From Micromonospora sp. WMMD1128 (GTDB lineage Bacteria > Actinomycetota > Actinomycetes > Mycobacteriales > Micromonosporaceae), in assembly GCF_027497235.1 (NCBI RefSeq), contig NZ_CP114902.1, forward strand, positions 1,997,501 to 2,061,500: a stretch of 64,000 nt of DNA, read 5' to 3'. The notes under the pieces were generated by a model. That model saw only the letters and a program-made list of their open reading frames with translations, had not been told where the DNA came from and did no database searches. Of the stretch, positions 8,660 through 57,970 are shown piece after piece. A program made the translations under genes and the position numbers. Position 1 is the stretch's first letter. Each line of letters begins with the position of its first letter.

Positions 8660-10049
<1,390 letters not shown>

Positions 10050-12097: not shown

Positions 12098-12856
12098 TCA
12101 CCCGTGTGGCCGCGGTGACCCGACGGCGGGGACGACGATGCCGGTCGCGAGGACGGAGTCCGTCGCCCGCCAGCGGCCGGCGAGTCCCACCATCGGCCGG
12201 GAACCGACCCGGGCCCCGTCGACGAGCAGCCGGGCGGTGAACCCGCCGTCGGCGCGTAGCGCCACCTCGGCCTGGGCGAAGTCGAGCCCGCGGCCGGTCA
12301 GCGGGAACCAGACCTTGTAGATCGCCTCCTTGGCGCTGAACAGCAACCGGTCCCAGTGCACGGCCGGGGTGGTGACCGGCAGCCGGCGGATCGCCGCCCG
12401 TTCCGACGGCAGCGAGATCGCCTCCAGCATGTCGTAGGGCAGGACCTGGTTCGGCTCGGCGTCGATGCCCACCGCGGCGACCTCGCTGTCCAGCGCCACC
12501 GCGCAGGCACGGTGGCCCCGGCAGTGGGTGATGCTGCCCACGACGCCCGGCGGCCATGTCGGCGCGCCGTCCGGGCCCGGCAGCACCGGCACCGGGGAGA
12601 TGCCGAGCCGGGCCAGGGCCCGCCGCGCGCACACCCGTACCGTGGTGAACTCCTCCCGGCGCCGCCGCACGACGTTGCGGATCACCGCCTGCTCCTGCGG
12701 GAACAGCGGGACGTCGACGATGTCCTGCGACGTCTCCTCGACCACGCAGATCCCGGCCGGCAGCAGGCTCGCGACCAGCCCCGGCCCGGCGGCGGACCGA
12801 CCGGCGCCGGGAACTTCCCCGTTCGCGTGCATCCCCGGGCCGGGCCGCTCACTCAC
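12098..12856 (-). CDS. 4'-phosphopantetheinyl transferase (Sfp/EntD type)
   Basis: 252 residues. The two family blocks are present: AAVGIDAEPNQVLP (metal-binding Asp and Glu) and FSAKEAIYKVWFPL (WxxKEA-like catalytic block), preceded by GSITHCRGHRACAVA. It transfers phosphopantetheine from CoA to Ser of carrier domains; clients here would be the six NRPS T domains and the stand-alone ACP. Last gene of the core NRPS operon; the GTG start overlaps the carbamoyltransferase gene end by 8 nt, so expression is coupled to that of the synthetases it activates. Confidence 0.92.
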   Translation of the reverse strand: MSERPGPGMHANGEVPGAGRSAAGPGLVASLLPAGICVVEETSQDIVDVPLFPQEQAVIRNVVRRRREEFTTVRVCARRALARLGISPVPVLPGPDGAPTWPPGVVGSITHCRGHRACAVALDSEVAAVGIDAEPNQVLPYDMLEAISLPSERAAIRRLPVTTPAVHWDRLLFSAKEAIYKVWFPLTGRGLDFAQAEVALRADGGFTARLLVDGARVGSRPMVGLAGRWRATDSVLATGIVVPAVGSPRPHG

Positions 12857-13775
12857 CGAGCGTCCAGTGCAGCGCCGCCATGGCGCTGTGCAGCTTGTGT
12901 CGGGCCTGCTCGAACGCCAGGCTGGCCGGACCGTCGAGGACCTCGGCGGCGACCTCCTCGCCCCGGTGCGCCGGCAGGTCGTGCAGGAACACCGCGTCGG
13001 GGAAGCGCGCCATCAGCGCCGCGTCCACGGCGAACGGCGCGAACACGCGACGCCACTGCGGGTCCGGCTTCGTGGTGCCGGTCGTCTGCCACCGGGTGGT
13101 GTAGACCACGTCGGCCCCCGCCGGCAGCGCCGCCATGTCGTGCCGCTGCCGGATCCGTCCCCCGGACCGGGCGCCGAGCGCCCGCGCCTCGTCGACGAGC
13201 GCGGGCGGCAGGCCGTACCCCGGCGGGGTACGCAGCTCCAGGTCGAGCCCGAGCCGGGGCAGGGCGAGCGCCAGCGCGGACGCCGTGTTGTTGCCCTCAC
13301 CGACGTAGAGCACCCGCAGCCCGGTCAGGTCGCCGAAGCGCGCCCGCATCGTGCTGAGGTCGGCCAACGCCTGGGTGGGGTGCTCCTGCGCGCTCATCGC
13401 GTTGATCACCGTGCCGAGGTGCCGGGACAGGGTACGCAGCTCGGCCTCCGGGCCGGCGGTGCGCGCCACCACCGCGTCGAGCATCCCGCCCAGCACCCGC
13501 GCGGTGTCGGCCATCGTCTCGCCGGTGTTGAGCTGGAGGTCACCCGGCCCGTACGTGACCACCTGCGCGCCCAGCCGCAGGGCGCCCGCCGTGAACGCCG
13601 TGCGGGTGCGGGTGGACGTCTTGGTGAACAGCACACCGACGACCCGCCCGCGCAACGCCCCGGTCGGATCCCGACGACCGGTGGCGAAGTCGACGCTGCG
13701 CCGTACCAGCTCGGCGAGCTGCTCGTCGGTCAGGTCCCGCAGCGAGATCAGGTGGCGCCCGCGCACGTCAGTCAC
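12849..13775 (-). CDS. ornithine/aspartate carbamoyltransferase-like enzyme (probable diaminopropionate carbamoyltransferase)
   Basis: 308 residues, the usual length of ornithine carbamoyltransferase. Carbamoyl-phosphate loop STRTRT (residues 54-59) and HPTQ (132-135) are intact. The substrate-side motif, HCLP in ornithine enzymes, reads HDLP here, so a changed amino-acid substrate is likely. GTGA overlap with the two-module NRPS gene upstream. In tuberactinomycin clusters an enzyme of this family (VioL) is proposed to convert 2,3-diaminopropionate to beta-ureidoalanine. With SbnA/SbnB-like genes in the same operon, the same reaction is inferred here. Alternatives: carbamoylation of ornithine to citrulline, or of a diaminopropionyl residue in the finished peptide. 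Confidence 0.85.
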   Translation of the reverse strand: MTDVRGRHLISLRDLTDEQLAELVRRSVDFATGRRDPTGALRGRVVGVLFTKTSTRTRTAFTAGALRLGAQVVTYGPGDLQLNTGETMADTARVLGGMLDAVVARTAGPEAELRTLSRHLGTVINAMSAQEHPTQALADLSTMRARFGDLTGLRVLYVGEGNNTASALALALPRLGLDLELRTPPGYGLPPALVDEARALGARSGGRIRQRHDMAALPAGADVVYTTRWQTTGTTKPDPQWRRVFAPFAVDAALMARFPDAVFLHDLPAHRGEEVAAEVLDGPASLAFEQARHKLHSAMAALHWTLGE

Positions 13776-16700
13776 TTCCGTCCCCCGTCGGTCGTCGTCT
13801 CCCCGGTCACGGCGGCAAGCACCGCCGCCAACGCGGCGACCCGCGGCGGTCGCAGCACCCCCAGGTGGTCGCCGGCGACCCGGTGCACCCGGACGTCCCC
13901 GGCGGCGGCCCCGCGCCACCGCCGCACGTACTCCGCCGGCCGCAGGTCCAGCGCCGACTCGTGGTCCCCGGCCGCCACCTCGTCGCTGAGCAGCACGTCG
14001 ACGCTGCCGGCGTAGGTCGGGAAGCGGTAGTCGAGCCGGGCCTGGAGCAGGTGCCGCCAGGCCCGCAGGCGGTGGGCCCACACGTCGCCCAGGTCGGCGT
14101 CGTCGACCCAGGCGTCGGCGTCGTCGACGAGCTCCCGGATGGTGGCCAGGAGGTCCGCCCGGCGGGCCGGGTCGGCGCCCTCGCCGGCCACGGCAGCGCA
14201 GACCCGCTCGGCGTCGCGCAGCCGGGCGAGCCGCGCGCCGACCCGGGCCCGGTGCGCCTCCCGGTCCGCCGCCGCGTCGTCGTTCACCGGATCCAGCAGG
14301 ATCAGCCGGACCCGCTCGCCGTCGGCGCGCAGCCGGCGGGCCATCTCCCAGGCGATCCCGCTGGAGGCGCACCAGCCGAGCAGGTGGTAGGGCCCGCTCG
14401 GGCGGGCCGCCCGCAGCTCGTCGAGGTAACGCCCGGCGATGGCCGGGACGTCCGTGGCCGCCACCGTGCCGTCGTGCAGCCCGGGCCACTCGAACGCGGC
14501 GACCGGCTGCTCGGCGACCGCGGCCAGCTCCCGGTACCAGTGCGCGCTGCCACCGCCGGGGTGCAGGCAGAACAGCGGCGTCCCCGCGCCGTCGCGGCGG
14601 AGCCACAGCAGCGCCGAGGCGGGCGACCGGTCCGGGGCGCCGGCGGCGGTCGCGATGCCGCGTACGGTGCGGTGGGTCAGGAAGTCCCGGAAGCTCAGGT
14701 CGATCCCGTCGGCCCGGCGCAGCCGCGCGATGACCCGCAGCATCAGCAGCGAGTGACCGCCGATGGCGAAGAAGTCGTCGTCGCGGCCGACCCGGTCCCG
14801 GTCGAGCAGGTCGGCCCAGGTCGCGGCGATGGCCTGCTCCACCGGTCCGCGGGGCGCGCGGTAGGGGAGGGCCGGCGCGGTCTCGTCCGGCGCCGGCGCC
14901 GGCAGGGAACCCCGGTCGATCTTGCCGTTGGGAAGGCGCGGGAACGCCGGCAGCACGGTGAACGTGGCCGGCACCATGTGGTCCGGCAGCACGGCGCCCG
15001 CGCGCCGCCGCACCTCCGCGGCCGTGCCCCCGGCGTCCAGGACCAGGTACGCGGCGAGCCGCCGGTTGCCGTCGCCGCCGGTCACCGGGTGCACCACCGC
15101 GCCGCGCACCCCCGGCTGGGTCAGCAGGACGTGCTCGACCTCGCCCAGCTCGATCCGGAAGCCGCGGATCTTCACCTGGTGGTCGCGCCGGCCGAGCACC
15201 ACGACCCGGCCGTCCCGGTCCCACCGGCCGATGTCGCCGGTGGCGTAGAGCCGCGCGCCGGGCGTCGCGGCGTACGGGTCGGGCAGGAACGCGCCGGCGG
15301 TGGCCCGGGGCCGGCCGAGGTAGCCCTGCGCCAACCCGTCGCCGCCGACGAAGATCTGCCCCGGCACCCCGGGCAGCACCGGCGTGAGGTCGTCGTCGAG
15401 CAGGTGGACTGTGGTGTTCGCGGCCGGCGTCCACACCGGCGCGTCGGGGCCGGAGAGGCGGGAGCCGAAGCAGAAGACGGTCGCCTCGCTCGGGCCGTAG
15501 TTGTCCCAGACCTCGGCGCCGTCGGCGGCCAGCCGGCCGACCAGCCCGGCGTCGACGGCCTCCCCGCCGGAGAGCACCCGGAACCCGGCCGGCGGGGTCC
15601 AGCCCGACTCCAGCAGCATCCGCCACGTCGTCGGGGACGCCTGCATGACGGTGGCCCCGGTGCGGCGCAGCAGGTCGGCCAGGGACACCGGGTCGCGGGC
15701 GTCGTCCTCGCTGGCGAGCACGAGCTGACCGCCGCAGCCGAGTGTGACGGCGAGCGCGAGCTGCGCCACGTCAGTGGAGACGGGCACCACCCCGAGTACC
15801 ACGTCGGCGGCGCTCAGCCGCAGGTTGCGGCGCATCGCGGCGGCCCGGTCGGCGAGCGCGCCATGGGTCGCCACCACGCCCATCGGCCGGCCGGTGGAGC
15901 CGGAGGTGTGCACCACGTACGCCACGTCGTCCGGGTGCGGCTGCCGGAGCGGCGCGCCGTCGTCGCCGCGCTCGTCCGGGTCGGGCGTCAGGACCGGCCG
16001 CCCGCCGTGCCGGCCGACGTGCTCCGGCCCGGCGACGACCGCCCGGACGTCGGCGTCGGCCAGGACGGCGGTGACCCGGGGCAGGGGATCGCGACGGTCG
16101 ACCGGCACCCAGGCGGCGCCGGCCGCGGCGATGCCGGCGATCGCCGCCAGCAGTTCCGGTTCCCGGGGCAGGCAGACGCCGACCCGGTCACCGGGGCGTA
16201 CCCCGGCGGCCCGCAGCCGCGCCGCCCACGTCCGGGCCCGGCGGTGCAGGTCGCGGTAGGTCAGCCGGTCGTCGGCGGTGCGCACCGCGACGGCGTACGG
16301 CCGCTCGCCGGCCTGCTCGGCGACGAGCTGGTGGAGGCCGCGGACGGTGACCGGCGTCCTCGGCCCGGCGCCGGCCGACAGCAGCCGCGCCCGCGTCTCC
16401 GCCGGCAGCAGGACCCGGGTGGCCGGGCCGTCCGGGTCGGTCGCCATGGCGGTCAGCGCCGCCCGGTACATGCCGGCCAGCAGGTCGCAGTGCCGCCTGT
16501 CGATCCGCGCGGCCTGGGCCATCATGACCAGCGCCCCGCCCAGCGTGGACACGGCGAAGGGGAACTCGTTGGGGCTGACGTCGGTGCTCGCCTCGGTGTC
16601 CACCGTGACCCGGTCCAGCACGTGGAAGTCGAGGTAGTTGAACGCGACCTCGTGCAACCGGCCGCCGGCGCCGAAGAGCCGCTGCATCTCGGCGAGCGGA

Positions 16701-19700: not shown

Positions 19701-20998
19701 GGGTAGGTCACCTCGCCGCCGAACGAGCCGTCCGGGCGCTCCTCAAGCGTCCAGCCCAGGTCGAACTTGGCGCGCCGGGACCGGACCGGGACCAGTTCGC
19801 CGGTGACGCCGGCGGCCTCGAACCGGGCCGGCTCGTTGTTCTGCAACGTCAGGTTGACCCCGGTCAGCGGATGGGTGGCCAGGTCGCGGTCGACGGCGAG
19901 GGCGTCGACGATCTGCTCGAACGGCACGTCCTGGTGGCTGTAGGCGTCGATCGCGGTGCTCCGGGCCCGGTCGAGCAGCTCGGCGAAGGTCGGGTCGCCG
20001 GCCAGGTCGGCGCGCAGCACGAGCATGTTGACGAAGTGACCGATCAGGTCGTGCGTCTGCCGGCGGGTGCGGCCGGCGATCGGGGTGCTCACCGCGAAGT
20101 CGTTCTGCCCGGTGCAGCGGGCCAGCAGCGTCCAGAGCACCGCCAGGTGGAGCATGAAGGGGGTGGCCCGGTGCTCGCGGGCGACGACCCCCGCCCGGCG
20201 GGCCAGGTCGGCCGGGACGTCGAAGCGCACCGTGCCGCCGGTGTCGTCCCACACCGCCGGGCGGGGACGGTCGGTGGGCAGCTCCGGCGCCGGCAGGTCG
20301 CGGAGCTGCCGGGTCCAGTAGGCGACGCCGTCCGGGTCGGCGGGGTGCGCGCGCTGCCAGGCGGCGAAGTCGGCGTACTGCAACGCGGGCGGCTGCGGGT
20401 CCGCGCCGGCGCACAGCGCGGCGAGGTCGCGGACCAGCAGGTCGCAGGACCAGCCGTCGATCGCGATGTGGTGCAGCAGGACGGCGAGCACGTGCGTACG
20501 CGGCCCGGAGCGGATCAGCCGGGCCCGCAGGACCGGACCGTTCGCCAGGTCGAACGGCCGCAGCGCCTCGGCCTCGAGCAACGAGTCCAGCGCGGACTCC
20601 GGCGCGCCGCCGAGGTCGACGAACTCCAACGGCACCGGGCCGGGCGGGTCGATGCGCTGCACCGGCTCGCCGTCCGCGCCCTCGACGTAGCGGGTCCGCA
20701 GGATCTCGTGCCGGGCGACGAGGCGGCGCAGCGCGTCCCCGAGGTCGATCCGGGAGAGGTCCCCGTCCAGGCGCAGCGCGATCGGCACCACGTAGTCGGC
20801 GCCGCCGGGACGGATCCGGTCGAGCACCCAGAGCCGGCGCTGGGCGAAGGACAGCGGCAGCACACCGTCGCGGGGGACCGCGACCACGTCGGGCAGCCGG
20901 TCACCGTCGGGCTTCGGGTCGGACGCGCGGGCCCGCAGCCGGTCCCGCAGCAGCCGGGCGCCGGCTCCCTGCGGCGGGCGGATCGCCTCAGCACTCAT
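13772..20998 (-). CDS. NRPS, modules 5-6: C-A-T-C-A-T-TE
   Basis: 2408 residues from the ATG overlapping the upstream NRPS stop (ATGA). Order: C5 (HHIAIDG about residue 174), A5 (TSGSTGQPKG about 644; my aligned pocket DVWNIAMVH, closest to the Thr type), T5 (GGDSIR about 1043), C6 (atypical CHAILDGWS about 1251), A6 (HTSGSTGRPMG about 1699; pocket DVLQLGNVF, not recognised), T6 (GGHSLL about 2081), thioesterase (about 2150-2400). No epimerisation domain. In C6 the first His of the HHxxxDG motif is Cys, but the catalytic second His is kept. The thioesterase nucleophile elbow is GWCASSG: Cys2210 (codon 14369-14371) replaces the usual Ser. It completes and releases the hexapeptide; macrocyclisation is possible. 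Pocket codes were aligned to GrsA by hand. Confidence 0.95.
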   Translation of the reverse strand: MSAEAIRPPQGAGARLLRDRLRARASDPKPDGDRLPDVVAVPRDGVLPLSFAQRRLWVLDRIRPGGADYVVPIALRLDGDLSRIDLGDALRRLVARHEILRTRYVEGADGEPVQRIDPPGPVPLEFVDLGGAPESALDSLLEAEALRPFDLANGPVLRARLIRSGPRTHVLAVLLHHIAIDGWSCDLLVRDLAALCAGADPQPPALQYADFAAWQRAHPADPDGVAYWTRQLRDLPAPELPTDRPRPAVWDDTGGTVRFDVPADLARRAGVVAREHRATPFMLHLAVLWTLLARCTGQNDFAVSTPIAGRTRRQTHDLIGHFVNMLVLRADLAGDPTFAELLDRARSTAIDAYSHQDVPFEQIVDALAVDRDLATHPLTGVNLTLQNNEPARFEAAGVTGELVPVRSRRAKFDLGWTLEERPDGSFGGEVTYPYALFDEPTIHRMTRIYRRLLEAAVADPGRPVGALPMLDGPALAEVVRPPAGAAPAGPCLHERFGEQARRCGDAVALTAGEDRLTYRELDERANRLAHRLRGAGVGREHLVGVCLPRGLDLVVAVLGVLKAGAAYLPLDPDHPQERLGFLLRDADAHVLVTDRALATRAPTEPDDEVIVLDDPAEAARIAALPGDPPPVPAHPDDLAYVIYTSGSTGQPKGVQVTHGNVVRLLTGTEPEYRFGPDDVWALFHSYAFDVSVWEIWGALLHGGRLVVVPYQVSRSPWELADLLAAERVTVLNQTQSAFRSLIQLAERGEGDLDRLCLRLVILAGEAVDVESLRPWWQRFGDETPRLVNMYGITETTVHSTYRALTVADLDRRRSPIGRPLTDLTVHLLDDRLQPVPLGVPGEICVGGPGVTRGYLNRPALTARRYVPDPFGAPGARLYRSGDKARMMPGGELEFLGRFDDQVKIRGFRVELGEVEACLGAHPDLKAAVVTVQETGPGEHRLVGYLVPRTDTVTVPQVRAHLSQRLPAYMVPAVLTVLPELPLTVNGKVDRRALPAPDEARPEQRQEYRPPATAAEMALAGLWAQVLGVDLVGVRDNFFALGGDSIRAVRLVGLLRDRGFGYSVQDLFRHQSIAELLAGGPGQHAAERVGTPPFALLDPDDRARVPAGVVDAYPMARAQAGMVYELLADPENRPYQNVTSYLVRDTGDFDPAALRAAVDGAVAAHEILRTSFDLAGFAEPVQLVHRAATPECAHHDLRGMPADEQRAHLDRFRRRERVRVFDLGRAPLIRVHAHRVTDQRWYLSLTECHAILDGWSHNSLVSELLAGYRAHRAGHPPPAPEATTVRFADFVAQERHSVTDPADRGFWAGRLAGVERLTIPAAWGDPAATGTCAVHVPYRDVEAGLRELAKRAGASLKSVLLAAHLTVWRQATGTTAFHGALVSNGRTEAQGGDLVRGMFLNPVPVVAPPATGSWRDLVRAVFAEEVALWPHRRYPLAEMQRLFGAGGRLHEVAFNYLDFHVLDRVTVDTEASTDVSPNEFPFAVSTLGGALVMMAQAARIDRRHCDLLAGMYRAALTAMATDPDGPATRVLLPAETRARLLSAGAGPRTPVTVRGLHQLVAEQAGERPYAVAVRTADDRLTYRDLHRRARTWAARLRAAGVRPGDRVGVCLPREPELLAAIAGIAAAGAAWVPVDRRDPLPRVTAVLADADVRAVVAGPEHVGRHGGRPVLTPDPDERGDDGAPLRQPHPDDVAYVVHTSGSTGRPMGVVATHGALADRAAAMRRNLRLSAADVVLGVVPVSTDVAQLALAVTLGCGGQLVLASEDDARDPVSLADLLRRTGATVMQASPTTWRMLLESGWTPPAGFRVLSGGEAVDAGLVGRLAADGAEVWDNYGPSEATVFCFGSRLSGPDAPVWTPAANTTVHLLDDDLTPVLPGVPGQIFVGGDGLAQGYLGRPRATAGAFLPDPYAATPGARLYATGDIGRWDRDGRVVVLGRRDHQVKIRGFRIELGEVEHVLLTQPGVRGAVVHPVTGGDGNRRLAAYLVLDAGGTAAEVRRRAGAVLPDHMVPATFTVLPAFPRLPNGKIDRGSLPAPAPDETAPALPYRAPRGPVEQAIAATWADLLDRDRVGRDDDFFAIGGHSLLMLRVIARLRRADGIDLSFRDFLTHRTVRGIATAAGAPDRSPASALLWLRRDGAGTPLFCLHPGGGSAHWYRELAAVAEQPVAAFEWPGLHDGTVAATDVPAIAGRYLDELRAARPSGPYHLLGWCASSGIAWEMARRLRADGERVRLILLDPVNDDAAADREAHRARVGARLARLRDAERVCAAVAGEGADPARRADLLATIRELVDDADAWVDDADLGDVWAHRLRAWRHLLQARLDYRFPTYAGSVDVLLSDEVAAGDHESALDLRPAEYVRRWRGAAAGDVRVHRVAGDHLGVLRPPRVAALAAVLAAVTGETTTDGGRK

Positions 20999-23900
20999 GC
21001 TCCACTCACTCCCATCCCGGCGTCGGTCGACCCGTTGTCGCCGTCCAGACTCTCGGCCAGCCGTTCCAACATGGCCGCCTGCGCGCTGACCGTGGTCGCC
21101 TCGAACAGCGCCCGCAGCGGGATCTCCAGGCCGAACAGGTCCCGCAGCCGGGCCAGCAGGCGGGTGGCCAGCAGCGAGTGCCCGCCGACCGCGAAGAAGT
21201 CGTGCTCGACGCCGACCGACGGCAGCCCCAGCACCTGCGCCCACGCGCCGGCGATGGCCTGTTCGACCTCGGTGCGCGGGGCCACCTCGGCGGCGGAGTC
21301 GTCCACGTCGGCGGCCGACGGCGGCGGCAGCGCCGCCCGGTCGACCTTCTTGCTCGCGTTGAGCGGCAGCCGGTCCAGCGTCACCCAGGCGCCCGGGAGC
21401 ATGTAGTCCGGCACCCGGTCGGCGAGGTGGCGGCGCAGCAGCGCCGGGCTGGGCGTGGCGCCCGCGTGCGGCACCACGTAGGCGACCAGCCGCCGGTCGC
21501 CGTCGTCGCCGTGCACCGCCGCGGCGGCGGCCCGCACCTCGGGGTGGGTGGCCAGCGCCGCCTCGATCTCGCCCAGCTCGATCCGCAGGCCGCGCAGCTT
21601 GACCTGGCCGTCGACGCGGCCGACGAACTTTACCGTGCCGTCGGCGGCCTGCCGCACGTGGTCGCCGGTGCGGTACAGCCGCTGCCCGGGCAGCTCACCG
21701 AAGGGGTCGGGCACGAACCGGTCGGCGGTCAGTCGCGGCCGGTCGTGGTAGCCGCGGCTGACCCGCTCGCCGCCCAGGCACAGCTCACCGACGAAGCCGG
21801 TGGGCACCGGCCGCAGGTCGTCGTCGAGCACGTACGCGCGGGTGCCGGGGACCGGCCGGCCGATCGGCAGCGGCGTCCGGGCCGGGGTCACCTCCGCCGC
21901 CGACACCGGATGGGTCAGCGAGACGATGGTGGCCTCGGTGGGCCCGTACGCGCAGACGAACCGGCCGGGTAGCTGCGCCGCGTGCCACAGTCGGGCGTCC
22001 TCGTGGGTGACCACCTCGCCGCCGACGTGCACCAGCCGCAGCCGGCTCAACCGCGGATCCCGGTGCCGCACCCCGGCCATCACCTCGCGGTAGTAGGCCG
22101 GGGTGAGCAGGACGTGGGTGATCCCGGCGGCGGCGAACCGGTCGGGCAGCTCCGACGGCGCCCAGAACTGGGCGTCGCTGATCACCACCGTGCCGCCGAC
22201 CAGCAGGATCGCCCCGAGCTGCTCCATCGCCAGGTCGAAGGTGAGCGCCGAGAGCAGGACCGCGCGGTCGGTGTCGCGAAGCTCGCTGACCTCGGCGATC
22301 ATCCGGCAGTGGTGGGTGTACGAGGCGTGCGGCACCATCACCGCCTTCGGCCGGCCGGTGGAGCCCGACGTGTAGATCATGTAGGCGAGCCGGTCCGGGT
22401 CGCCGGCCGGCAGGTCGCCGGGCAGGTCACCCGACGCGGCGTCCTCCGCCGATCCGGTCTCGCCGACGACCACGACCGGCGTGCCGTCGACGTCGATCCG
22501 GTCGGCGACCCGCTTCCCGGCGACCACGGCCGCCGGGCGCAGGTCACGCAGCAGGACGGCCAACCGCTCCGGCGGCTGACCGGTGCCCAGCGGCACGTAC
22601 ACCCCGCCGGCGCGCAGCACGGCGAACAGCACCACCGGCACCGCGAGCGACCGGTCGAGCAGGACGGCGACCGGTCGCTCCGGCGCCACGCCGGCACCGC
22701 GCAGCCGGTGCGCCAGGGCGGTGGCCTGCCGGTCCAGCTCGGCGTAGGTCAACCGGCCGGCGGGGCTCTCCACGGCCACCGCGTCCGGGGTGCGCCGCAC
22801 CTGCGCCGCGAACGCCTCGTGCAGGCACTCCCGGTCGACCGGCTCGGCCGGCGGGTTCCAGCGCCGGGCCAGCTCCCGCCCCTCCCGCTCGCCGAGCAAC
22901 GGCAGCCGGCCGACGGGCGTTCCCGGCGCCGCCGCCGCGCCCGCCGCCAGGACACCGAACTGGGCGGCCATCCGGCGGGCGGTCTCCGCGCCGAACAGCG
23001 CGGTCGCGTACTCCAGTTCCAGCCGGTACCCGCCGTCCGGCTCGGCGGTCAGGGTCAGGGTGAGGTCGAACTTCGCGGTCCGGCGCCCGGTGTCCAGACG
23101 GTCCGCGCGCAGGCCGGCGAGCCGGAGCCCGTCGCCCGCCGCGTCGTCGACCACCATCATCACGTCGCACAGCGGCGAGCGGGACAGGTCCCGCGGCGGC
23201 GCCAGCTCCTCCACCAGCCGGTCGAACGGCAGCTCGTCGTGGGCGAACGCGTCCCCGGCGTGCCGCCGGACCCGGCCCAGGAGCGTGGTGAGGTCCGGGT
23301 CGTCGTCCAGGTCGACGCGGAGCACCACGGTGTTGACCAGCAGGCCGACCAGGTCCTCCAGCTCGGGGCGGTGCCGACCGGCGACGACGGTGCCGATCGG
23401 CACGTCGACGGTCCCGGCGTGCCGACCCAGCAGCGTGGCGAAGACGGCGAGGAAGGTCATGAACGGGGTCGCGCCGCAGCGCCGGCCGACGGCCAGCAGC
23501 GGGCGCGCCACCTCGGCGGGCAGCCGGGCGTCCACAGTGGCGCCACGGCCGTCGCGGACCGGCGGGCGCGGCAGGTCGGTCGGCAGCGCGAGCGGGGACA
23601 GCCCGGCCAGCCGCTCGCGCCAGAACGCCACCTCGGCGGTGACCGTCTCGTCGGTCAGCCGCGCCCGCTGCCACACCGCGACGTCGGCGTAGCGCACCGC
23701 GGGCGGCGGCAGCGCCGCCGGGCGGCCGGCGAGCCGGGACCGGTACGCGGCGGACAGGTCGCGGGCCAGCACGCGGTCCGACCAGCCGTCGCCGGCGATG
23801 TGGTGCATGACGAGGACGAACACGTGGTCGTCCGGGCCGAGCCGGATCAGGTGCGGCGACACCGGTGGCGCCGCCTCCAGGTCGAACGGCCGGTCGGCCA

Positions 23901-29900: not shown

Positions 29901-32900
29901 CGGCGGGCAGCTCCGTCGCCCGGGCCCCGGCCAACCGCCGGCGCCAGAAGTCCAGGTGCCGCGCGGCGCGCTCGCCCCGGGCCGCGGCGTGCTCGCGGCG
30001 GGCGTGCTCGGCGTAGCGCAGCGCCGGAGCGGGCCGGCTGCGGCCCGCGCAGCCGTCGACGATCTCGTCGGCGAGCAGCCGGGCGCTCCGGTCGTCCACG
30101 GCGATGTGGTGCAGCATCACGAGCAGCGTGTGCCGGCCCGCCGGGTCGGCGAGCAGGCGCCACCGCACCGGCGCGGCGGCGGCCAGGTCGAACGGGCGGG
30201 CCGTCTCCTCGGCGAGGACGTCGGCCAGGTCGGCGCGCTCGGCGCGCAGGCGCACCGGCGTCGGCGGGTCGACCACCTGGACCGGTTCGGCGTCGGCCTC
30301 GACGTAGCGGGTCCGGAGGATCTCGTGCCGCTCGACCACGGACGTGACGACGCGCTCCACCCGGTCGGCGGGCACGCCGGCGGGCAGCGGGATCGCCAGC
30401 GGCTCGTGGTAGGCGCTGCCGTCCGGGTCCCGCTGGTGCAGCAGCCACATGCCGCGCTGCGCGAACGACAGCGGCGCGGGCCCGGTCGCCGGCCCGGCAG
30501 TAGGCCCGGCAGTAGGCCCGGCAGTAGGCCCGGCAGTCGGCCCGGCCGTCGGCGCGTCGGTGGCCGGGACCGGGCCGGCCGCCGCCAGCCGACGCGCCAC
30601 CTCGGCGACCGTGCGGCCGTCGAACAGCGCCGCGACCGGCACGTCGGCGCCGGTCTCGGCCCGCAGCCGGCCGGCGGCCCGGGTGGCGAGCAGGGAGTGC
30701 CCGCCCAGGGCGAAGAAATCTGCGTCGGCGTCGGTGACCGGGCGGCCGAGCGTCTCGGCGAAGACCCGGGCGACAAGTCGTTCGGTGGCGTCGGCCGGGG
30801 ACCGGTGCGGGGCGTCGTCGGCGCGGTCGTCGTGGTCGTCCGCCTCCGGGTCCGCCGGCACGGTCAGCGCCGAGCGGTCGATCTTGCCGTTGGCGGTGGT
30901 GGGGAAGCGGTCGAGCAGCACGAACCGGGTGGGGACCAGGTAGGGCGGCAGCAGCCGGGCGCAGTGCCGGCGCAGCGCCCGCGGCCCGGGCGGGTCGGTC
31001 GGGTCGGTCGGGCGCAGCCAGGCGACCAGCCGGGGGTCGCCGGCGTCGTCGTCGACCGCGCCGACCACGGCCGCCGCCACTCCCGGCTGGTCGACCAGGA
31101 CGTTCTCCACCTCGGCCGGTTCGATCCGGAACCCGCGGATCTTCAGTTGGTCGTCGGTGCGGCCGAGGATCTCGACGCTCCCGTCGGCGCGCCGACGGGC
31201 CACGTCCCCGGTGCGGTAGAGGCGGGCGCCCGGCTCGGCGGCGTACCGGTCGGGCAGGAACCGGTCGGCGGTCAGCGCGGGCCGGCCGACGTAGCCGGCG
31301 GCCACGCCCCGGCCGCCGACGTACAGCTCGCCGGGCGCGCCCGTGGGCACCGGCTCGAGGTCGTCGTCGAGCACGTACAGGCTGGTGTTGGCGACCGGGG
31401 CGAACTCCCGCGCGGCCGGGCCGGTGAGGCGGGCCGCCGACGACCACACGGTCGTCTCGGTCGGCCCGTAGAGGTCCCACAGGTCGACACCGGCGTCGAG
31501 CAGCCGGCGGGCCAGCTCGACCGGGAGCCGTTCGCCGCCGCAGAGCGCGGTGAAGCCGGCGGGCGGCGTCCAGCCGGCGTCCAGCAGGAGCCGCCAGGTG
31601 ATCGGGGTGGCCTGCATGACGCGGGCGCCGGCGCGCGCCAGCAGCGCGGCCAGGCGCTGCGGGTCGCGGGCGTCGGCGCCGGTGGCGACCAGCACCCGGC
31701 CGCCGACGAGCAGGGGCAGGAACAGTTCCAGCACGGCGATGTCGAACGACACCGTGGTGACGGCCGGCAGGACCGCCCCGGACGGCAGCCCGGGGCGCTC
31801 GCGCATGGACCACAGGAAGTTGGTCAAACAGCGGTGGGTCACCAGCACGCCCTTGGGCCGGCCGGTCGACCCGGAGGTGTAGACGACGTAGGCCGCGTCG
31901 TCCGGCCCGGGTCCCGGGCCCGCGTCGGCGTCGCCGGCCGCCGGCAGCCGGTCCAGGCGGACCTCGACCGTTCCCGGCGCGGCACGCACGCCGTCCGGGC
32001 CGGCGGTGACCAGGACGCCGACGCCCGCGTCGGCGAGGATGTGGGCCAGCCGTCCGGCCGGGTGCTCGGGGTCCAGGGGGACGTAGGCGGCGCCCGCCCA
32101 CAGCACGCCCAGCAACGCCGGGACCAGGTCCGCGTCGCGGGGCACGGCGACGCCGACCCGGTCCCCCCGGCGCACGCCGAGTCCGCGCAGGTGCGCGGCG
32201 AGCGCTCGGCTGCGGGCCACCAGCTCGCGGTACGTCAGCCGCCGGGTGCCGTCGTCGACCGCCACCGCGTCCGGCGTGTCGGCGGCCTGCCGGGCGACCA
32301 GCTCGGGCAGGGTCCGCTCCGGCACCGGCGTGCCGGCCGTCGGCGTGACCAGGGCGCATCGCTCCGCCTCGGGCAGCAGAGCGAGCCCGCCCAGCGGCGC
32401 GTCGGGGCGCGCGTCGGCGTCGTGCAGCAGCGTGGACAGGCGGGCCGCGAGGCGCGCGGCGTCCTCGGCGGTGAACAACGCCCGGGGGTACGCCAGCTCG
32501 CCGGTGGGCCGGCCGTCGACGCGCCGCAGGCGCACCACGAGGTCGTACCGGTCCACCGGCGCGGCGCCGGGCCCGTCGGTCACGTCGACGAGCACCCCGA
32601 CCCCGGCGGTGTCGTCGGTGGCCCGGCGCGCCGCCTCCCCGGCCCGCCGCGCGGCCTCCGCGAACGGCAGCCGGCGGGGCAGGTCGAGGGCGAGCGACAG
32701 GCGACGGTCCCCGGTACGCAGCGCGAGCGTGCCGGCCCACCGGCCGGCGTGCCGGGCGAGCAGGGTGTGCACCGCGGCGGCGGCCACCGCGCCGGTCGCG
32801 ACGCGGTCCCGCCCGCCCAGCGACCCGGGCACCGCGAACGGCACGGTGCCCGTGCCCGCCGGCCGGTCGACCGGCCGGCGGCGGGTCGTCGGCGCGGGCA

Positions 32901-32994
32901 TCGGCAGGGCGACGTCGAGCCGGTCCGGTTCGTCGGCCCGGCCCGGCCCCGCCGGGGGGACCTGGGCCGATGCGGGGGTTGCGCTCATCGTCAC
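20995..32994 (-). CDS. NRPS, modules 1-4: (partial C)-A-T-C-A-T-C-A-T-C-A-T
   Basis: 3999 residues from GTG 32994; ATG 32988 (two codons shorter) is equally possible. Residues 1-220 resemble only the C-terminal half of a condensation domain and lack HHxxxDG. Then A1 (TSGSTGRPKG about 376; pocket DILQLGLVW, Gly type), T1 (GGHSLL about 765), a GPTA-repeat linker, C2 (HHIAVDD about 965, Gly of the motif changed to Asp), A2 (about 1416; DLTKVGSVA, Asn/Asp-like), T2 (GGQSLL about 1809), C3 (HHIAVDG about 2011), A3 (about 2481; DAWQFATID, Gln-like), T3 (GGHSLL about 2871), C4 (HHIAGDG about 3065), A4 (about 3541; DLELHGAIV, partly Trp-like), T4 (GGHSLL about 3936). No epimerisation domains. The first half of the peptide is built here and handed to the 13772-20998 protein. 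Codes are hand alignments to GrsA and carry error. Confidence 0.95.
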   Translation of the reverse strand: MTMSATPASAQVPPAGPGRADEPDRLDVALPMPAPTTRRRPVDRPAGTGTVPFAVPGSLGGRDRVATGAVAAAAVHTLLARHAGRWAGTLALRTGDRRLSLALDLPRRLPFAEAARRAGEAARRATDDTAGVGVLVDVTDGPGAAPVDRYDLVVRLRRVDGRPTGELAYPRALFTAEDAARLAARLSTLLHDADARPDAPLGGLALLPEAERCALVTPTAGTPVPERTLPELVARQAADTPDAVAVDDGTRRLTYRELVARSRALAAHLRGLGVRRGDRVGVAVPRDADLVPALLGVLWAGAAYVPLDPEHPAGRLAHILADAGVGVLVTAGPDGVRAAPGTVEVRLDRLPAAGDADAGPGPGPDDAAYVVYTSGSTGRPKGVLVTHRCLTNFLWSMRERPGLPSGAVLPAVTTVSFDIAVLELFLPLLVGGRVLVATGADARDPQRLAALLARAGARVMQATPITWRLLLDAGWTPPAGFTALCGGERLPVELARRLLDAGVDLWDLYGPTETTVWSSAARLTGPAAREFAPVANTSLYVLDDDLEPVPTGAPGELYVGGRGVAAGYVGRPALTADRFLPDRYAAEPGARLYRTGDVARRRADGSVEILGRTDDQLKIRGFRIEPAEVENVLVDQPGVAAAVVGAVDDDAGDPRLVAWLRPTDPTDPPGPRALRRHCARLLPPYLVPTRFVLLDRFPTTANGKIDRSALTVPADPEADDHDDRADDAPHRSPADATERLVARVFAETLGRPVTDADADFFALGGHSLLATRAAGRLRAETGADVPVAALFDGRTVAEVARRLAAAGPVPATDAPTAGPTAGPTAGPTAGPTAGPATGPAPLSFAQRGMWLLHQRDPDGSAYHEPLAIPLPAGVPADRVERVVTSVVERHEILRTRYVEADAEPVQVVDPPTPVRLRAERADLADVLAEETARPFDLAAAAPVRWRLLADPAGRHTLLVMLHHIAVDDRSARLLADEIVDGCAGRSRPAPALRYAEHARREHAAARGERAARHLDFWRRRLAGARATELPADRRRPTDRSGAGVRFEVPASVVARLDEIAAGQRATRFHVLLAGFFAVLARHSGRTDVTVGVPVSLRDRPELDDVLGLFVNTVVLRADLDRAPAFTDLVSAVRDGTLAAWAHADVPFEQVVADRAAGVDPLRNPLFTVLFTTHDEALPAGSEPPPHREVKAEQSWHLTPRPDGGLAGRVDVAAARFDPDLVAALAAGYVRALATVADAPATPVDRLAPGQPTPAVTPWPAPDDTAVTVAQLVTGRAEPDAVAVTGNGPSLTFAELDRRANRLAHRLLGLGVGPDRIVAVRLPRTPDLVVALLAVVKAGGAYLPLDPRDPGPRQARALADARPVVFLGPADERLPLPAGVRQLDPTAPAERAALRRLPDTAVPVTVDPDDLAYVVYTSGSTGQPKGVLVTHRGLTAYTRWASATLLPPGGGGSPLHTSIAYDLAVTSLFPVLAAGEPVRLLAEEPGVDALAPALAEAATGTPYAMVKLTPTHLDLLATAAPGATGGARCLVIGGEPLHGDRLASWAAQAPATRIVNSYGPSETAVACAAHVTTAGAVGDGPVPIGEPLPGVTVHLLDEALRPVPAGAVGEIHVGGCGVGRGYLGRARATADRFGPDPWAARPGARLYRTGDLARRRGDGTIEYVGRRDDQVKINGYRVEPGEAHSVLAAHPAVRAAAVVADHRDPRAPRLAAYVVPATADATPARLRAHLADRLPAHLVPTLWGIVPELPLLGSGKVDRQALPHLATPQEAGTRYEPPASPAERVIAAVWADVLGVARVGRHDRFLDLGGQSLLATRLAARLRDRLPAPVTVRDVFAAQTVAALATVVAERARALVERMFDDDGEEAEPQAPPVEVDRALPRADRSGPLPLSFAQRRLWFLDQVGDGVDYLVPTALRLRGELDPDALSAALTRVVARHEVLRTRYVAGPDGEPAQVVDPPPARIALTPEDADPAAVLRAEVEIPVDLAAGPVLRARLLRVTPREHVLLLVIHHIAVDGLSMGLIAEELADAGRGVTRAPLPAQYADFAVWQRDRLTGPELDRLLDYWRQRLAGSEPTHLPADRPRPALRDAHGDLVRFTVPATVVRRLDEVGRRAGATGFMTCLTVFLTLLARHTGRTDVTVGVPTSGRTTAQVEQLVGFFVNTVVLRADLAGDPSFAGLLGRVADVAAEAFAHEELPFDRLVEELAPQRDRSGNPLFDLLFAYREAGDERFALPGLDVTVEPTPTHTAKFDLTLEVTRQPDGGLTGEIEYATALFDRSTVERIAGRFGHLLAGAAEAPHLPISRLPMLDAAEHRAVVAHGHGPDRPRPDAGLPELVAEQAARTPGAVAVEYGDERMRYGDLDAAANRLARHLRAAGIGRDDVVGLCLPRRPDLVVALLGVLRAGAAFLPLDPAHPPQRQALMLRDAGARLLLTADGSPPGLAATLGAEVPTLDLTAERAQIRARAATAPDRTDPDSIAYVIYTSGSTGAPKGVAVPHRGIRNRVLWAVRRYGFGPDDRMLQKTSVSFDASVWEFLAPLVSGGAVVLAPAGAERDPVTVVDLVARHRVTVLQGVPSFLRPLADEPTLDRCVSLRLLFSAGEPLADDLARRLTGRLPVTLVNTYGPTEASIDVTAWQYDDAAPAGGPVPIGAPLDNTRAFVLAGDGSVAPFGVPGELHVAGEGLARGYLGRPRLTAQRFVPDPYGPPGSRAYRTGDLARRRADGALEFLGRTDQQVKIRGVRVEPGEVETVLARHPAVSTAVVVARPGPDGQARLAAYLVTRGAPPAHTEIRAFLLARLPEPYVPSVFVPVDRMPLTTSGKVDRAALPEPGFDRRGELVAPRTPTERTVAAILAEVLGLDTVGVTDDFFELGGHSLLAIRFAGRLRAALGAAVSVRAVLEDRTVAAVAARYADRAAPAVDGGIAGAAADGPAALSHAQQRLWFLHRLDPDGTQYHVTWAVRLAGRLDPDALAAALTDVVARHDVLRTRYPAGPDGTPAQVVEPARPVRLPVTEAPPVADRVGRDDRLAALVRTLADRPFDLEAAPPVSPHLIRLGPDDHVFVLVMHHIAGDGWSDRVLARDLSAAYRSRLAGRPAALPPPAVRYADVAVWQRARLTDETVTAEVAFWRERLAGLSPLALPTDLPRPPVRDGRGATVDARLPAEVARPLLAVGRRCGATPFMTFLAVFATLLGRHAGTVDVPIGTVVAGRHRPELEDLVGLLVNTVVLRVDLDDDPDLTTLLGRVRRHAGDAFAHDELPFDRLVEELAPPRDLSRSPLCDVMMVVDDAAGDGLRLAGLRADRLDTGRRTAKFDLTLTLTAEPDGGYRLELEYATALFGAETARRMAAQFGVLAAGAAAAPGTPVGRLPLLGEREGRELARRWNPPAEPVDRECLHEAFAAQVRRTPDAVAVESPAGRLTYAELDRQATALAHRLRGAGVAPERPVAVLLDRSLAVPVVLFAVLRAGGVYVPLGTGQPPERLAVLLRDLRPAAVVAGKRVADRIDVDGTPVVVVGETGSAEDAASGDLPGDLPAGDPDRLAYMIYTSGSTGRPKAVMVPHASYTHHCRMIAEVSELRDTDRAVLLSALTFDLAMEQLGAILLVGGTVVISDAQFWAPSELPDRFAAAGITHVLLTPAYYREVMAGVRHRDPRLSRLRLVHVGGEVVTHEDARLWHAAQLPGRFVCAYGPTEATIVSLTHPVSAAEVTPARTPLPIGRPVPGTRAYVLDDDLRPVPTGFVGELCLGGERVSRGYHDRPRLTADRFVPDPFGELPGQRLYRTGDHVRQAADGTVKFVGRVDGQVKLRGLRIELGEIEAALATHPEVRAAAAAVHGDDGDRRLVAYVVPHAGATPSPALLRRHLADRVPDYMLPGAWVTLDRLPLNASKKVDRAALPPPSAADVDDSAAEVAPRTEVEQAIAGAWAQVLGLPSVGVEHDFFAVGGHSLLATRLLARLRDLFGLEIPLRALFEATTVSAQAAMLERLAESLDGDNGSTDAGMGVSGA
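30491..30550. repeat. 12-bp tandem repeat encoding a Gly-Pro-Thr-Ala linker
   Basis: Five units of ggcccggcagta (last two with one or two changes) inside the four-module NRPS gene encode repeated G-P-T-A between T1 and C2. The unit keeps frame, so linker length could vary between strains. Confidence 0.9.
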
Positions 32995-33015
32995 CTCGAC
33001 TCGCTCGCTAGCGGC

Positions 33016-33234
33016 TCAGCTGTCCTGTTCGGCCATCCGCCGCCGCAGGCTCAGCGGGCGCATGTCGGTCCAGATCCGTTCGACGTGGTCCAGGCACTGC
33101 TCGCGGGTGCCGGCGAAACCCTCGGCGCGCCACCCGTCGGGCACCTGCCGGTCGGCGGCCCACACCGAGTACTGCTCCTCGTGGTTCACCACCACGAGGA
33201 ACGACCGGTCGGTGGGGGATTCGTGCTCTGTCAT
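33016..33234 (-). CDS. MbtH-like protein
   Basis: 72 residues with the family pattern VVVNHEEQYSVWAADRQVPDGW..EGFAGTREQCLDHVERIWTDMRPLSLRRRM, including the invariant tryptophans that clamp an adenylation-domain alanine. MbtH proteins are non-catalytic partners needed for folding or activity of many actinobacterial A domains. The gene lies just upstream of the NRPS pair. A longer reading frame upstream is not homologous, and the ATG at 33234 is the clear start. Confidence 0.96.
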   Translation of the reverse strand: MTEHESPTDRSFLVVVNHEEQYSVWAADRQVPDGWRAEGFAGTREQCLDHVERIWTDMRPLSLRRRMAEQDS

Positions 33235-33244
33235 CGGTTTCCCT

Positions 33245-34282
33245 TCAGCGGTTGTCGGCGGCGGGGACGCGGTCGGCCGGGGCGTCGGCGGCGAAGTCCG
33301 GGACGCGCACGCCGAGGCCGCGTTCGACGGCGGCGTCGCGCACGTGCGCGGCGAGGGCGGCGTCGAGCGCGCCCAGGCCGAACGGGGAGAAGACGGTGAG
33401 GGCGCTCTCGTCGTAGGGCACCCGGACCCGACCGGCGAGCAGGTCACCCAGTTCGGCGGCGATGAACCGGCGGTCACCGGCGACCGTCTCGGCCAGCTCC
33501 AGCGAGGTCGCCGCCCGGCACACGTGGTCGGCGTCGTCGACCACGTTGCGGGCGCCCAGGACGGCTCGTGCGGTCAGGTCGCGCAGCGACAGGTGCAGCA
33601 TGACCGTGCCCGGCCGGCACGCCCCGGCGTCGGTGTGCGGTCGGGCGGCGGTGGTGGCGAAGCAGACCAGCCGGTGCGCGGCGAGCGCGTCGGTCATCGA
33701 TTCCGCCACCCGCACCGCGAGCCGCGGCCAGGCCGCGGTGGCGCGCTCGGCGAACCGGCGGGCCCGGCCCGGGTCGAGGTCGAACACGGTGACCGCGCCC
33801 AGCCGCGGCAGGTGCGCGTGCAGGAACCGCAGCACCTCGACGTTGATCAGCCCGGCGCCGATCAGGGCGACACCGGCGGTGACATCGGCGGGCGCCCCGG
33901 CGGTCAGGGCGCCGGCGGCCACGGCGGCGGAGGCGGCGGTGCGGCGCGCCGAGATGACCGAGCCCTCCAGCAGCGCCTCGGTCCGGCCGTCCGTGACCGA
34001 GCTGAGCAGGATGGCGGCCGAGGCCCGCTCTCGGCCCCGGTCGACGTTGCCCGGGAAGGAGGCGATCCACTTCAGCGAGGCCACCGGACGCGCGCCGCCG
34101 ACGTAGGCGGGCAGGGCGATGACGCGGTTGCGCTCGTCGTCGGGGAAGCGCAGGAAGACCGAGTGGGGCACGGCGGTGGCGCCGTCCGCGTGGTGGACGT
34201 ACGCGTCGCGGACCAGCCGGCAGACGGCCGGTTCGTCGCCGTCGAGGACCGCCAGGACGTCGGCGCGTCGCAGGATCAACAC
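33245..34282 (-). CDS. SbnB-like N-(2-amino-2-carboxyethyl)-glutamate dehydrogenase (ornithine cyclodeaminase family)
   Basis: 345 residues from GTG 34282, which overlaps the SbnA-like gene end by 7 nt. Ornithine cyclodeaminase/mu-crystallin fold: substrate-binding NRVIALPAYVG..ASLKWIASFPGN, nucleotide-binding GVALIGAGLINVEVLRFL, and VTVFDLDPGRARRFAERA. With the SbnA-type partner it is expected to oxidatively hydrolyse N-(2-amino-2-carboxyethyl)-L-glutamate to L-2,3-diaminopropionate and 2-oxoglutarate, as in staphyloferrin B; VioK has the matching role in viomycin. The gene pair is the strongest evidence that the peptide, or a precursor of one residue, contains diaminopropionate. Confidence 0.9.
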   Translation of the reverse strand: MLILRRADVLAVLDGDEPAVCRLVRDAYVHHADGATAVPHSVFLRFPDDERNRVIALPAYVGGARPVASLKWIASFPGNVDRGRERASAAILLSSVTDGRTEALLEGSVISARRTAASAAVAAGALTAGAPADVTAGVALIGAGLINVEVLRFLHAHLPRLGAVTVFDLDPGRARRFAERATAAWPRLAVRVAESMTDALAAHRLVCFATTAARPHTDAGACRPGTVMLHLSLRDLTARAVLGARNVVDDADHVCRAATSLELAETVAGDRRFIAAELGDLLAGRVRVPYDESALTVFSPFGLGALDAALAAHVRDAAVERGLGVRVPDFAADAPADRVPAADNR

Positions 34283-35274
34283 CGTGCCTTCTCCTTCCAC
34301 AGGTGGCCGATCTCGCCGAACTTCGCTCGCACCCAGGCGTCGTCGTAGATCGTGTCGAGGTAGCGCTCGCCCCGGTCGGGCAGGATCAGCACGCAGGTGC
34401 TGCCGGCCGCCAGCGTGTCCAGCCGGCCGGCGACGGCGCTGACGACGGCGCCGGACGAGCCGCCGCTGAGGATCGCCTCGGCGCCCACCAGCCGACGGCA
34501 TCCCACGACGCAGTCCTGGTCGGTGACCCGCACCACCGAGTCGGCGATGCCGTCGTGGTAGAGGCCGGGCCGGATGGCCGCGCCGTGCCCGGGGATGAGC
34601 CGGCGGCAGGTCGAGCCGCCGAAGATCGCGCTGCCCTCGGCGTCGACCGCGGTGATCCGGGTCCGCAGGCCGTGCGCGGCCTTGTAGCGGGCGCAGCCGT
34701 GGATCGTGCCGCACGAGCCGGTCGCCACGAACAGGTGGTCCACCGGTTCGTCGAGCGCGGTCACGACCTCCCGCATGATCGCTTCCTGCGCACGCCCGTT
34801 GAGCGGGTTCGCGTACTGGTTGGGCCAGTACGCGTCCGGTTCGCTGTCGAGCAGTTCCCGGACCCGGCGCAGGCGGGCGCCGAGGAAGTCGCCCAGGTCG
34901 TTGTCCGGCTCGGTGACCCGGTCCAGCTCCGCGCCGTACGCCGACATGATCGCGCAGTTCTGCGCGGTCGTCTTCGGGTCGATCACGCAGACGAAGCGCA
35001 GGTCGAGCCAGCGGCACACCTGGGCGAGCCCGATGCCGAGGTTGCCGGAGCTGGACTCGACCACCGTCGAGCGTCCCGGGACCAGCTCACCGCTGTCGAC
35101 GGCGCCGAGCACCATCGCGACGGCGGACCGGTCCTTCATGCTGCCGCCCGGGTTCAACGCCTCGAGCTTGGCGTAGAACCGGGCCGGCGAGCCGGGGAAG
35201 AGGCGGTCGAGTCGGACCAGCGGCGTGCCCCCGACGGCGGAGAGGATCCCGTCCCGGGGTGGCATCTCGATCAC
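34276..35274 (-). CDS. SbnA-like PLP-dependent N-(2-amino-2-carboxyethyl)-glutamate synthase
   Basis: 332 residues of the cysteine-synthase family. The PLP lysine is in NPGGSMKDRS (Lys47), followed by VESSSGNLGIGLAQVC (substrate loop) and the phosphate-binding ATGSCGTIHG. SbnA joins O-phospho-L-serine and L-glutamate to N-(2-amino-2-carboxyethyl)-L-glutamate, the precursor cleaved by the SbnB-type enzyme encoded immediately downstream. VioB of viomycin is the antibiotic counterpart. Start ATG 35274; 16 bp after the ACP gene; part of the core leftward operon. Confidence 0.92.
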   Translation of the reverse strand: MIEMPPRDGILSAVGGTPLVRLDRLFPGSPARFYAKLEALNPGGSMKDRSAVAMVLGAVDSGELVPGRSTVVESSSGNLGIGLAQVCRWLDLRFVCVIDPKTTAQNCAIMSAYGAELDRVTEPDNDLGDFLGARLRRVRELLDSEPDAYWPNQYANPLNGRAQEAIMREVVTALDEPVDHLFVATGSCGTIHGCARYKAAHGLRTRITAVDAEGSAIFGGSTCRRLIPGHGAAIRPGLYHDGIADSVVRVTDQDCVVGCRRLVGAEAILSGGSSGAVVSAVAGRLDTLAAGSTCVLILPDRGERYLDTIYDDAWVRAKFGEIGHLWKEKARC

Positions 35275-57061: not shown

Positions 57062-57970
57062 GGGTGTTCTCCTGGTGGGTCAGGGGGTGTGGTGGTGGGC
57101 GGTGAGGGTTTCGAGGTGGGGGACGATCTGGTTGGGGGAGGGGAGGGTGGTGATTTCGTGGGCGAGGTCGGTGGCGCGGGTGTGGAAGTGGGGTTCGGTG
57201 AGGAGGCGGTGGACGGCGTCGCGGACGGTGGGTCCGGTGGCGTTGCTGGTGTGGATTTGCAGGCCGGCGCCGTGGGTGGCGAGTTTGTGGGCGAGTTGGG
57301 GTTGGTCGAAGTGGTAGTGCAGGGCGAGTTGGGGGACGGGGTGGCGGCTGGTGGTGGCGAGGGTGGCGGCGCCGGCGTGGTGGATGACGGCGGCGCAGGT
57401 GGGGGCGAGGGCGTGCCAGGGGACGTAGGGGACGACGCGGACGTTGGGTGGCAGGGTGCCGAGGGCGGGTTGTTCGTGTTCGGCGATGGTGGCGACGAGT
57501 TCGATGTCGAGTTCGGCGAGGGTGTGGATGAGGTCGCCGATGTCGAGGGTGTAGCCGTCGTAGATTTCGGTGGCGCTGAGGCCCATGGTGAGGGCGACGC
57601 GGGGTCGGGTGGGTGGTTTGGTGAGCCATTCGGGGATGGTGGCGGGGCCGCCGTAGGGGATGTATTGCATGCGGAGGTAGTGCAGGCCGGGTGCTTCGGT
57701 CTGGAGGGTGGCGGGGAACTGGTCGATGGTGAAGTGGCCGGTGGCGAGGTCTTCGGTGAGGTCGAAGCCGTAGCGGCGGGCGTAGCCGTCGAACCAGGTC
57801 ATGAGGGGGTCGGTGGCGTGGTCGGGGGGTTGTTGGCGGTGTAGGTCGAGGAAGGTTTGGCGGACGCCGCCGAAGACGTCGAGGCCGAACAGGAGGCGGG
57901 CGTGGGCGGCGCCGCAGGCTTTGGCGGCGATGGATCCGGCGAAGGTCATGGGTTCCCAGATGACCAGGTC
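57050..57970. repeat. 921-bp perfect direct repeat, copy A
   Basis: Identical base for base to 58340-59260 (offset 1290). It covers the first bases and start codon of the downstream gene, the 18-bp spacer with its ribosome site, and the last 296 codons plus stop of the 57080-58351 glycosyltransferase gene. Its coding strand uses CAA, CTA and AAA more than neighbouring genes. Confidence 0.97.

Follow-up and report, generated by a model that had tools for sequence, protein, structure and literature searches.

Why would a nonribosomal peptide synthetase (NRPS) with a glutamine-like pocket in its third adenylation (A) domain be encoded beside genes for diaminopropionate synthesis and an ornithine carbamoyltransferase (OTC)-like enzyme? 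The question arises from a minus-strand gene block (12098‒35274) in a 64,000-nucleotide stretch of Micromonospora sp. WMMD1128 (NZ_CP114902.1, positions 1,997,501 to 2,061,500; hereafter the window). The original prediction, made from the sequence, held that the enzymes supply beta-ureidoalanine (Uda, also called L-albizziine) and that module 3 may load it. Gene content and genomic linkage make it highly probable, in our view, that SbnA- and SbnB-like enzymes make L-2,3-diaminopropionate (L-Dap), that an L-2,3-diaminopropionate transcarbamylase (DPTCase) converts it to albizziine, and that the A domain of module 3 (A3) loads albizziine as residue 3 of the peptide.

In the proposed pathway, the SbnA-like enzyme would join O-phosphoserine and Glu, and the SbnB-like enzyme would oxidize and hydrolyze the product to L-Dap, a route known from work on Staphylococcus aureus. 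The DPTCase would then carbamoylate the β-amino group of L-Dap with carbamoyl phosphate, and A3 of the synthetase NRPS1 would adenylate the resulting free Uda and load it onto the carrier domain T3. This would place Uda at position 3 of the peptide made by the six modules, to which sugars are probably added afterwards. We infer the enzymatic steps, carbamoylation before loading, and the substrate of A3 from the gene families, motifs, codes, gene order, and genomic linkage described below.

Predicted enzymes for L-Dap and its carbamoylation

The SbnA-like, SbnB-like, and OTC-like trio named by the original prediction was confirmed by curated profiles and by motif reading. The SbnA-like protein, a PLP synthase (34276‒35274), scores 387.3 bits against TIGR03945 (cut-off 349.95); its best solved relative is SbnA (5d87, 248.5 bits), and the motif NPGGSMKDR is conserved. 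The SbnB-like protein, an NAD-dependent dehydrogenase (33245‒34300), scores 351.3 bits against TIGR03944 (cut-off 326.9) on 33245‒34225, its start codon being uncertain. Its best solved relative is 4m54 (91.6 bits), named as a putative ornithine cyclodeaminase, which we take to be SbnB. Both scores exceed the curated NCBIfam thresholds for Dap synthesis, and the proteins are predicted to convert O-phosphoserine and Glu to the Dap precursor and to release L-Dap, respectively.

The OTC-like protein (12849‒13775) scores 254.1 bits against TIGR00658, under the OTC cut-off of 280.85. It has the carbamoyl-phosphate motifs SxRTR (STRTR, 13602‒13616) and HPxQ (HPTQ, 13371‒13382), while TTRWQTTG (13077‒13100) replaces DxxxSMG and HDLP (12972‒12983) replaces HCLP, the latter as the original prediction had stated. 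By its score and by the absence of DxxxSMG and HCLP, the protein is distinct from the ornithine carbamoyltransferase ArgF. A separate OTC with DTWTSMG and HCLP is encoded elsewhere in the genome, and on all these grounds an OTC or arginine function for 12849‒13775 was rejected.

In one review, (T/S)RWQTTG with HDLP is described as the DPTCase signature and TRWQSMG with HDLP as that of the diaminobutyrate enzyme (PMC4581275), while a later review gives the two motif labels swapped (PMC6022934). Since the two reviews assign both motifs oppositely, a TTRWQTTG-type motif is by itself not decisive for the substrate. Dap is the predicted natural substrate because SbnA and SbnB are encoded in the same operon. 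Among the best 80 of 158 relatives found in public genomes, all 80 have HDLP (79 by regular expression and L088 by eye) and 75 have RWQTTG; the others have RWNTTG (L025), RWETTG (L067, L079, and L087), or RWQTMG (L088).

Specificity code of A3

Alignment of A3 (24934‒25986, Pfam stretch 2337‒2687 of NRPS1) to GrsA retains the conserved lysine and gives the code DAWQFATID, the same as read originally. Seven of its nine positions are shared with DAWQFGLID, which we take to be the Gln code, and A301 and T322 stand where Gln-activating domains have G and L. The earlier description of the pocket as Gln-like therefore holds for these seven positions, but A3 is not simply a Gln domain, as it belongs to a separate, DPTCase-linked clade. 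When 320 A-domain segments were placed in a tree, those with the code formed essentially a single clade apart from the Gln and Ser codes; 233 of the 234 tips under its ancestor (node support 0.61) carry the code, and the exception reads DAWQCGTVD. Uda is a near-isostere of Gln, and A301 and T322 would be natural candidates for meeting the ureido NH.

Linkage of the code to DPTCase-like genes

The A3 core was searched against 354 genomes of the family to which the window belongs (E ≤ 1e-80), the domains being picked by similarity rather than by code. This search returned 61 domains in 53 genomes, 60 of which carry DA(W/L)Q-x-ATID (38 DAWQFATID, 20 DAWQCATID, 1 DAWQTATID, and 1 DALQWATID; the last domain reads DVWHISLVD). 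DPTCase matches were also called by similarity (E ≤ 1e-70) and not by motifs; scoring was limited to 6 to 10 candidates in each genome, and weaker members may be missed. A DPTCase match is present in 51 of the 52 genomes that hold the 60 xATID domains, compared with 66 of the 354 overall (78 places). Forty-eight of the domains lie less than 60 kb from a match, 10 have it on another contig, 1 at 60.9 kb, and 1 has none. The sole match of the A3 search that lacks the code comes from a genome without a DPTCase match (G296).

The same association was found in 266 Streptomyces genomes, where the A3 core finds 23 domains in 22 genomes, all with xAT(I/V)D. Twenty of these 22 genomes have a DPTCase match, compared with 55 of the 266 overall. 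The match lies within 21 kb for 14 domains, on another contig for 5, and 88 and 150 kb away for 2; the remaining 2 domains have none. The Fisher p-values, 9e-47 for the same family and 1e-13 for Streptomyces, ignore the relatedness of the domains. The xATID code lies near DPTCase-like genes in NRPSs that differ in their make-up, and it is the persistence of the linkage across these different enzymes that carries weight.

A control search for SbnA (E ≤ 1e-60) in the 354 genomes gave matches in 62; a DPTCase match accompanies SbnA in 51 of these and is missing from the other 11. No xATID domain was found in any of these 11 genomes (four, G229, G303, G306, and G309, with SbnA scores above 400 bits and the other seven below 261 bits), and the single A-domain code seen in the stretches around SbnA in G229 and G303 is DAQDFALVN. 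Since these 11 genomes lack the code, its occurrence seems tied to carbamoylation rather than to the supply of Dap. The proposals that Dap is converted to albizziine and that module 3 loads it are both supported, the former by the DPTCase signature and the SbnA and SbnB scores over their cut-offs, the latter by the linkage in both groups of genomes and the absence of the code from the control genomes.

Beyond this cluster, we think it probable, if somewhat less so than the pathway itself, that DA(W/L)Q-x-AT-(I/V)-D specifies albizziine in particular and marks a clade that travels with DPTCase through many NRPS scaffolds, which would make albizziine a common building block of actinobacterial peptides that has largely gone unseen. 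If this is true, a short sequence rule would flag albizziine residues in NRPS clusters otherwise read as glutamine, and the use of this Gln isostere would extend well past viomycin and zwittermicin. The candidate code is probably of more use than this one cluster. The strings DAWQFATID, DAWQCATID, DALQFATVD, and DAWQSATID were absent from the main text of the searchable literature, which is mostly without subscription papers and supplements, and they may be noted elsewhere.

Another recurrent code, DVDE(N/V)(G/S)xVT, was seen in L020, L041, L072, L081, L033, L012, L015, G241, and G374, directly after the xATID domain in several of these loci. With acidic residues at two pocket positions, these domains may load a basic amino acid.

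Alternative substrates and order of steps

The seven code positions shared with Gln could mean that A3 loads ordinary glutamine, in which case albizziine would enter through a different module (A4 or A6) or be used off-line. The unusual code of A4, DLELHGAIV, also fits this explanation, which we nevertheless regard as unlikely. Glutamine needs no dedicated pathway, so the DPTCase linkage would be left unexplained, and a DPTCase match accompanies the xATID clade in nearly every genome (51 of 52). A4-like domains (E ≤ 1e-65; 25 in 22 genomes) lie within 5 kb of an xATID domain in 23 of 25 cases, yet they accompany just 23 of the 60 xATID domains. A4 is therefore not the common partner of the code, and it was rejected as a general Uda domain.

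Two further explanations, each of which appears very improbable, concern the carbamoyltransferase. It might act on carrier-bound or peptide Dap, with A3 loading free Dap, and a 2022 review indeed places the VioL carbamoylation among later modifications (PMC9403184). Against this stand the Gln-like pocket of A3 and the lack of the xATID code in genomes with SbnA but without a DPTCase match. Free Dap is also reported (Barkei, 2009) to be carbamoylated before incorporation in viomycin and capreomycin. Alternatively, the enzyme might make a homologue from diaminobutyrate or ornithine, as the padanamide enzyme of Streptomyces sp. RJA2928 (DBTCase), likewise OTC-like and with HDLP, acts on L-2,4-diaminobutyrate (PMC4581275). 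That enzyme differs in having TRWQSMG (PMC4581275), whereas the motif here is TTRWQTTG; moreover, the operon supplies the Dap makers SbnA and SbnB, and a canonical OTC is present elsewhere in the genome.

Several observations weigh against the loading of albizziine by A3 and against its code as a general rule. Because the domains with the code make up essentially a single clade, the Fisher p-values overstate independence. Some of the DPTCase matches in the genome searches, being called by similarity, are near 50% identity, and only 4 of the 11 control genomes have a strong SbnA match. The code occurs without a DPTCase match in G352 (about 630 contigs), G410, and G493, and the nearest match is 150 kb off in G558 and 88 kb off for one of the two G537 domains. 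Conversely, a Gln-coded A domain lies about 10 kb from the DPTCase in both L080 and L084, SbnA matches are missing within 60 kb of 28 of the 78 same-family DPTCase places, and only 10 of the 80 DPTCase loci (flanks of 10 kb or less) contain the code, 73 of the 80 having any A domain. Some DPTCases may serve other pathways, including the second one in this genome. The whole route rests on sequence and linkage, and its enzymatic steps are predictions.

Comparison with known systems

The viomycin genes corresponding to the trio are VioB, VioK, and VioL, with the module VioF, and those of capreomycin are CmnB, CmnK, and CmnL, with the module CmnF, which takes Uda. The SbnA- and SbnB-like proteins of the window are closer to 5d87 and 4m54 than to the capreomycin proteins (248.5 bits compared with 148.9 for CmnB, and 91.6 compared with 51.8 for CmnK). 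Carbamoylation of Dap to Uda is already known from viomycin, capreomycin, and zwittermicin (PMC4581275, PMC6022934), and the present cluster adds a further member of this kind, with a candidate Uda specificity code. The viomycin and capreomycin systems likewise use an SbnA-, SbnB-, and OTC-like trio (PMC4581275, PMC6022934), and capreomycin also has an MbtH partner (PMC12400406), but the cluster described here is six-module and sugar-rich. The trio agrees with the viomycin-type precedent that had been cited, yet this frame proved too narrow in view of zwittermicin (PMC4581275) and of the DPTCase-like matches in the 66 same-family and 55 Streptomyces genomes.

Among the 17 matches to capreomycidine synthase VioD (TIGR03947) in this genome, none is over the cut-off, and a tuberactinomycin cluster was rejected. 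Nothing therefore points to a tuberactinomycin scaffold, in line with the original prediction. VioD is over the cut-off in 3 of the 29 DPTCase-bearing genomes examined. No viomycin- or capreomycin-named protein appears among the best 120 of 2563 and the best 120 of 1834 database matches listed, with names shortened. The A1 domain of CmnA loads unmodified Dap in capreomycin biosynthesis, and CmnF, whose code is not given in the portion of the article examined, is an NRPS enzyme in its own right (PMC12400406).

Targeted queries found no literature description of the present glycosylated-peptide cluster. Zwittermicin A is assembled in Bacillus by a hybrid of NRPS and polyketide synthase (PKS), unlike the peptide here. 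By description, Dap is likewise carbamoylated to Uda in the zwittermicin pathway of Bacillus cereus (PMC4581275).

Organization of the gene block

The block reads, 5′ to 3′ on the minus strand, SbnA, SbnB, MbtH, NRPS1, NRPS2, the OTC-like gene, and a 4′-phosphopantetheinyl transferase (PPTase), all co-directional and with profile matches far above chance. By open reading frame (ORF) coordinates, the ends of SbnB and SbnA, DPTCase and NRPS2, and PPTase and DPTCase overlap. NRPS2 (13772‒20998) overlaps the NRPS1 stop as well if the ATG at 20998, which we chose within an ORF opening at 21244, is its start. Since the genes abut or overlap, the block likely forms one operon, a point that had been put more firmly before.

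The MbtH-like protein (33016‒33234; PF03621, 78.1 bits), a putative A-domain partner, lies between SbnB and NRPS1. NRPS1 (20995‒32994) comprises four modules, A1-T1, C2-A2-T2, C3-A3-T3, and C4-A4-T4, according to its Pfam stretches (4 AMP-binding, 3 Condensation, and 4 PP-binding), and NRPS2 comprises two modules and a thioesterase (TE), C5-A5-T5 and C6-A6-T6-TE. The codes of A1, A2, A5, and A6 are DILQLGLVW, DLTKVGSVA, DVWNIAMVH, and DVLQLGNVF; A1 presumably resembles Gly codes, A2 Asp/Asn codes, and A5 Thr codes. The thioesterase, at the low end of NRPS2, reads GWCASS and has no GxSxG match, which suggests a Cys nucleophile. The PPTase (12098‒12856) scores 89 bits against PF17837 and 53.4 bits against PF01648.

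A second carbamoyltransferase set and the surroundings of the cluster

The same genome holds a second carbamoyltransferase set at 1956202‒1963512 (L005 and L006), about 34‒41 kb before the window. Its DPTCase has TTRWQTTG and HDLP and is 59% identical, and its SbnA- and SbnB-like proteins are below the cut-offs (244.9 bits compared with 349.95 for TIGR03945, and 199.3 bits compared with 326.9 for TIGR03944). Also in the set are an AurF-like N-oxygenase, an O-carbamoyltransferase, and a gene that weakly matches ATP-grasp. Two radical SAM genes lie close by, and motif reading found no A domain in 1940001‒1980000. It may lead to an N-oxidized small molecule.

From window position 9018 to genome position 2,078,728 (about 72 kb), the DNA is 96‒98.5% identical to a Salinispora pacifica CNR114 contig, except for about 3.5 kb near 2,070,640‒2,074,133 and smaller gaps. 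Since two genes elsewhere, the OTC and one that resembles aspartate carbamoyltransferase, are only 85% and 88% identical to those of CNR114, the cluster probably moved recently between the two species by horizontal transfer. Window positions 1‒9017 appear to lie outside the transferred stretch, with only 1,956 bases of the CNR114 contig on that side.

Within the 72-kb stretch, deoxysugar and tailoring genes occupy 36767‒61324. They encode an aminotransferase, a 2,3-dehydratase, a C-methyltransferase, RmlA, a P450 family protein, a Trp-type halogenase, a NodU-like carbamoyltransferase-family (O-carbamoyltransferase-like) protein, and five EryCIII-like glycosyltransferases. Judged by the deoxysugar, glycosyltransferase, and halogenase genes, the likely product is a peptide some six residues long that is glycosylated and possibly halogenated. 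Two adjacent glycosyltransferases at 57080‒59641 have near-equal Pfam scores, and since CNR114 seems to have one copy fewer there, the pair is likely a recent tandem duplication.

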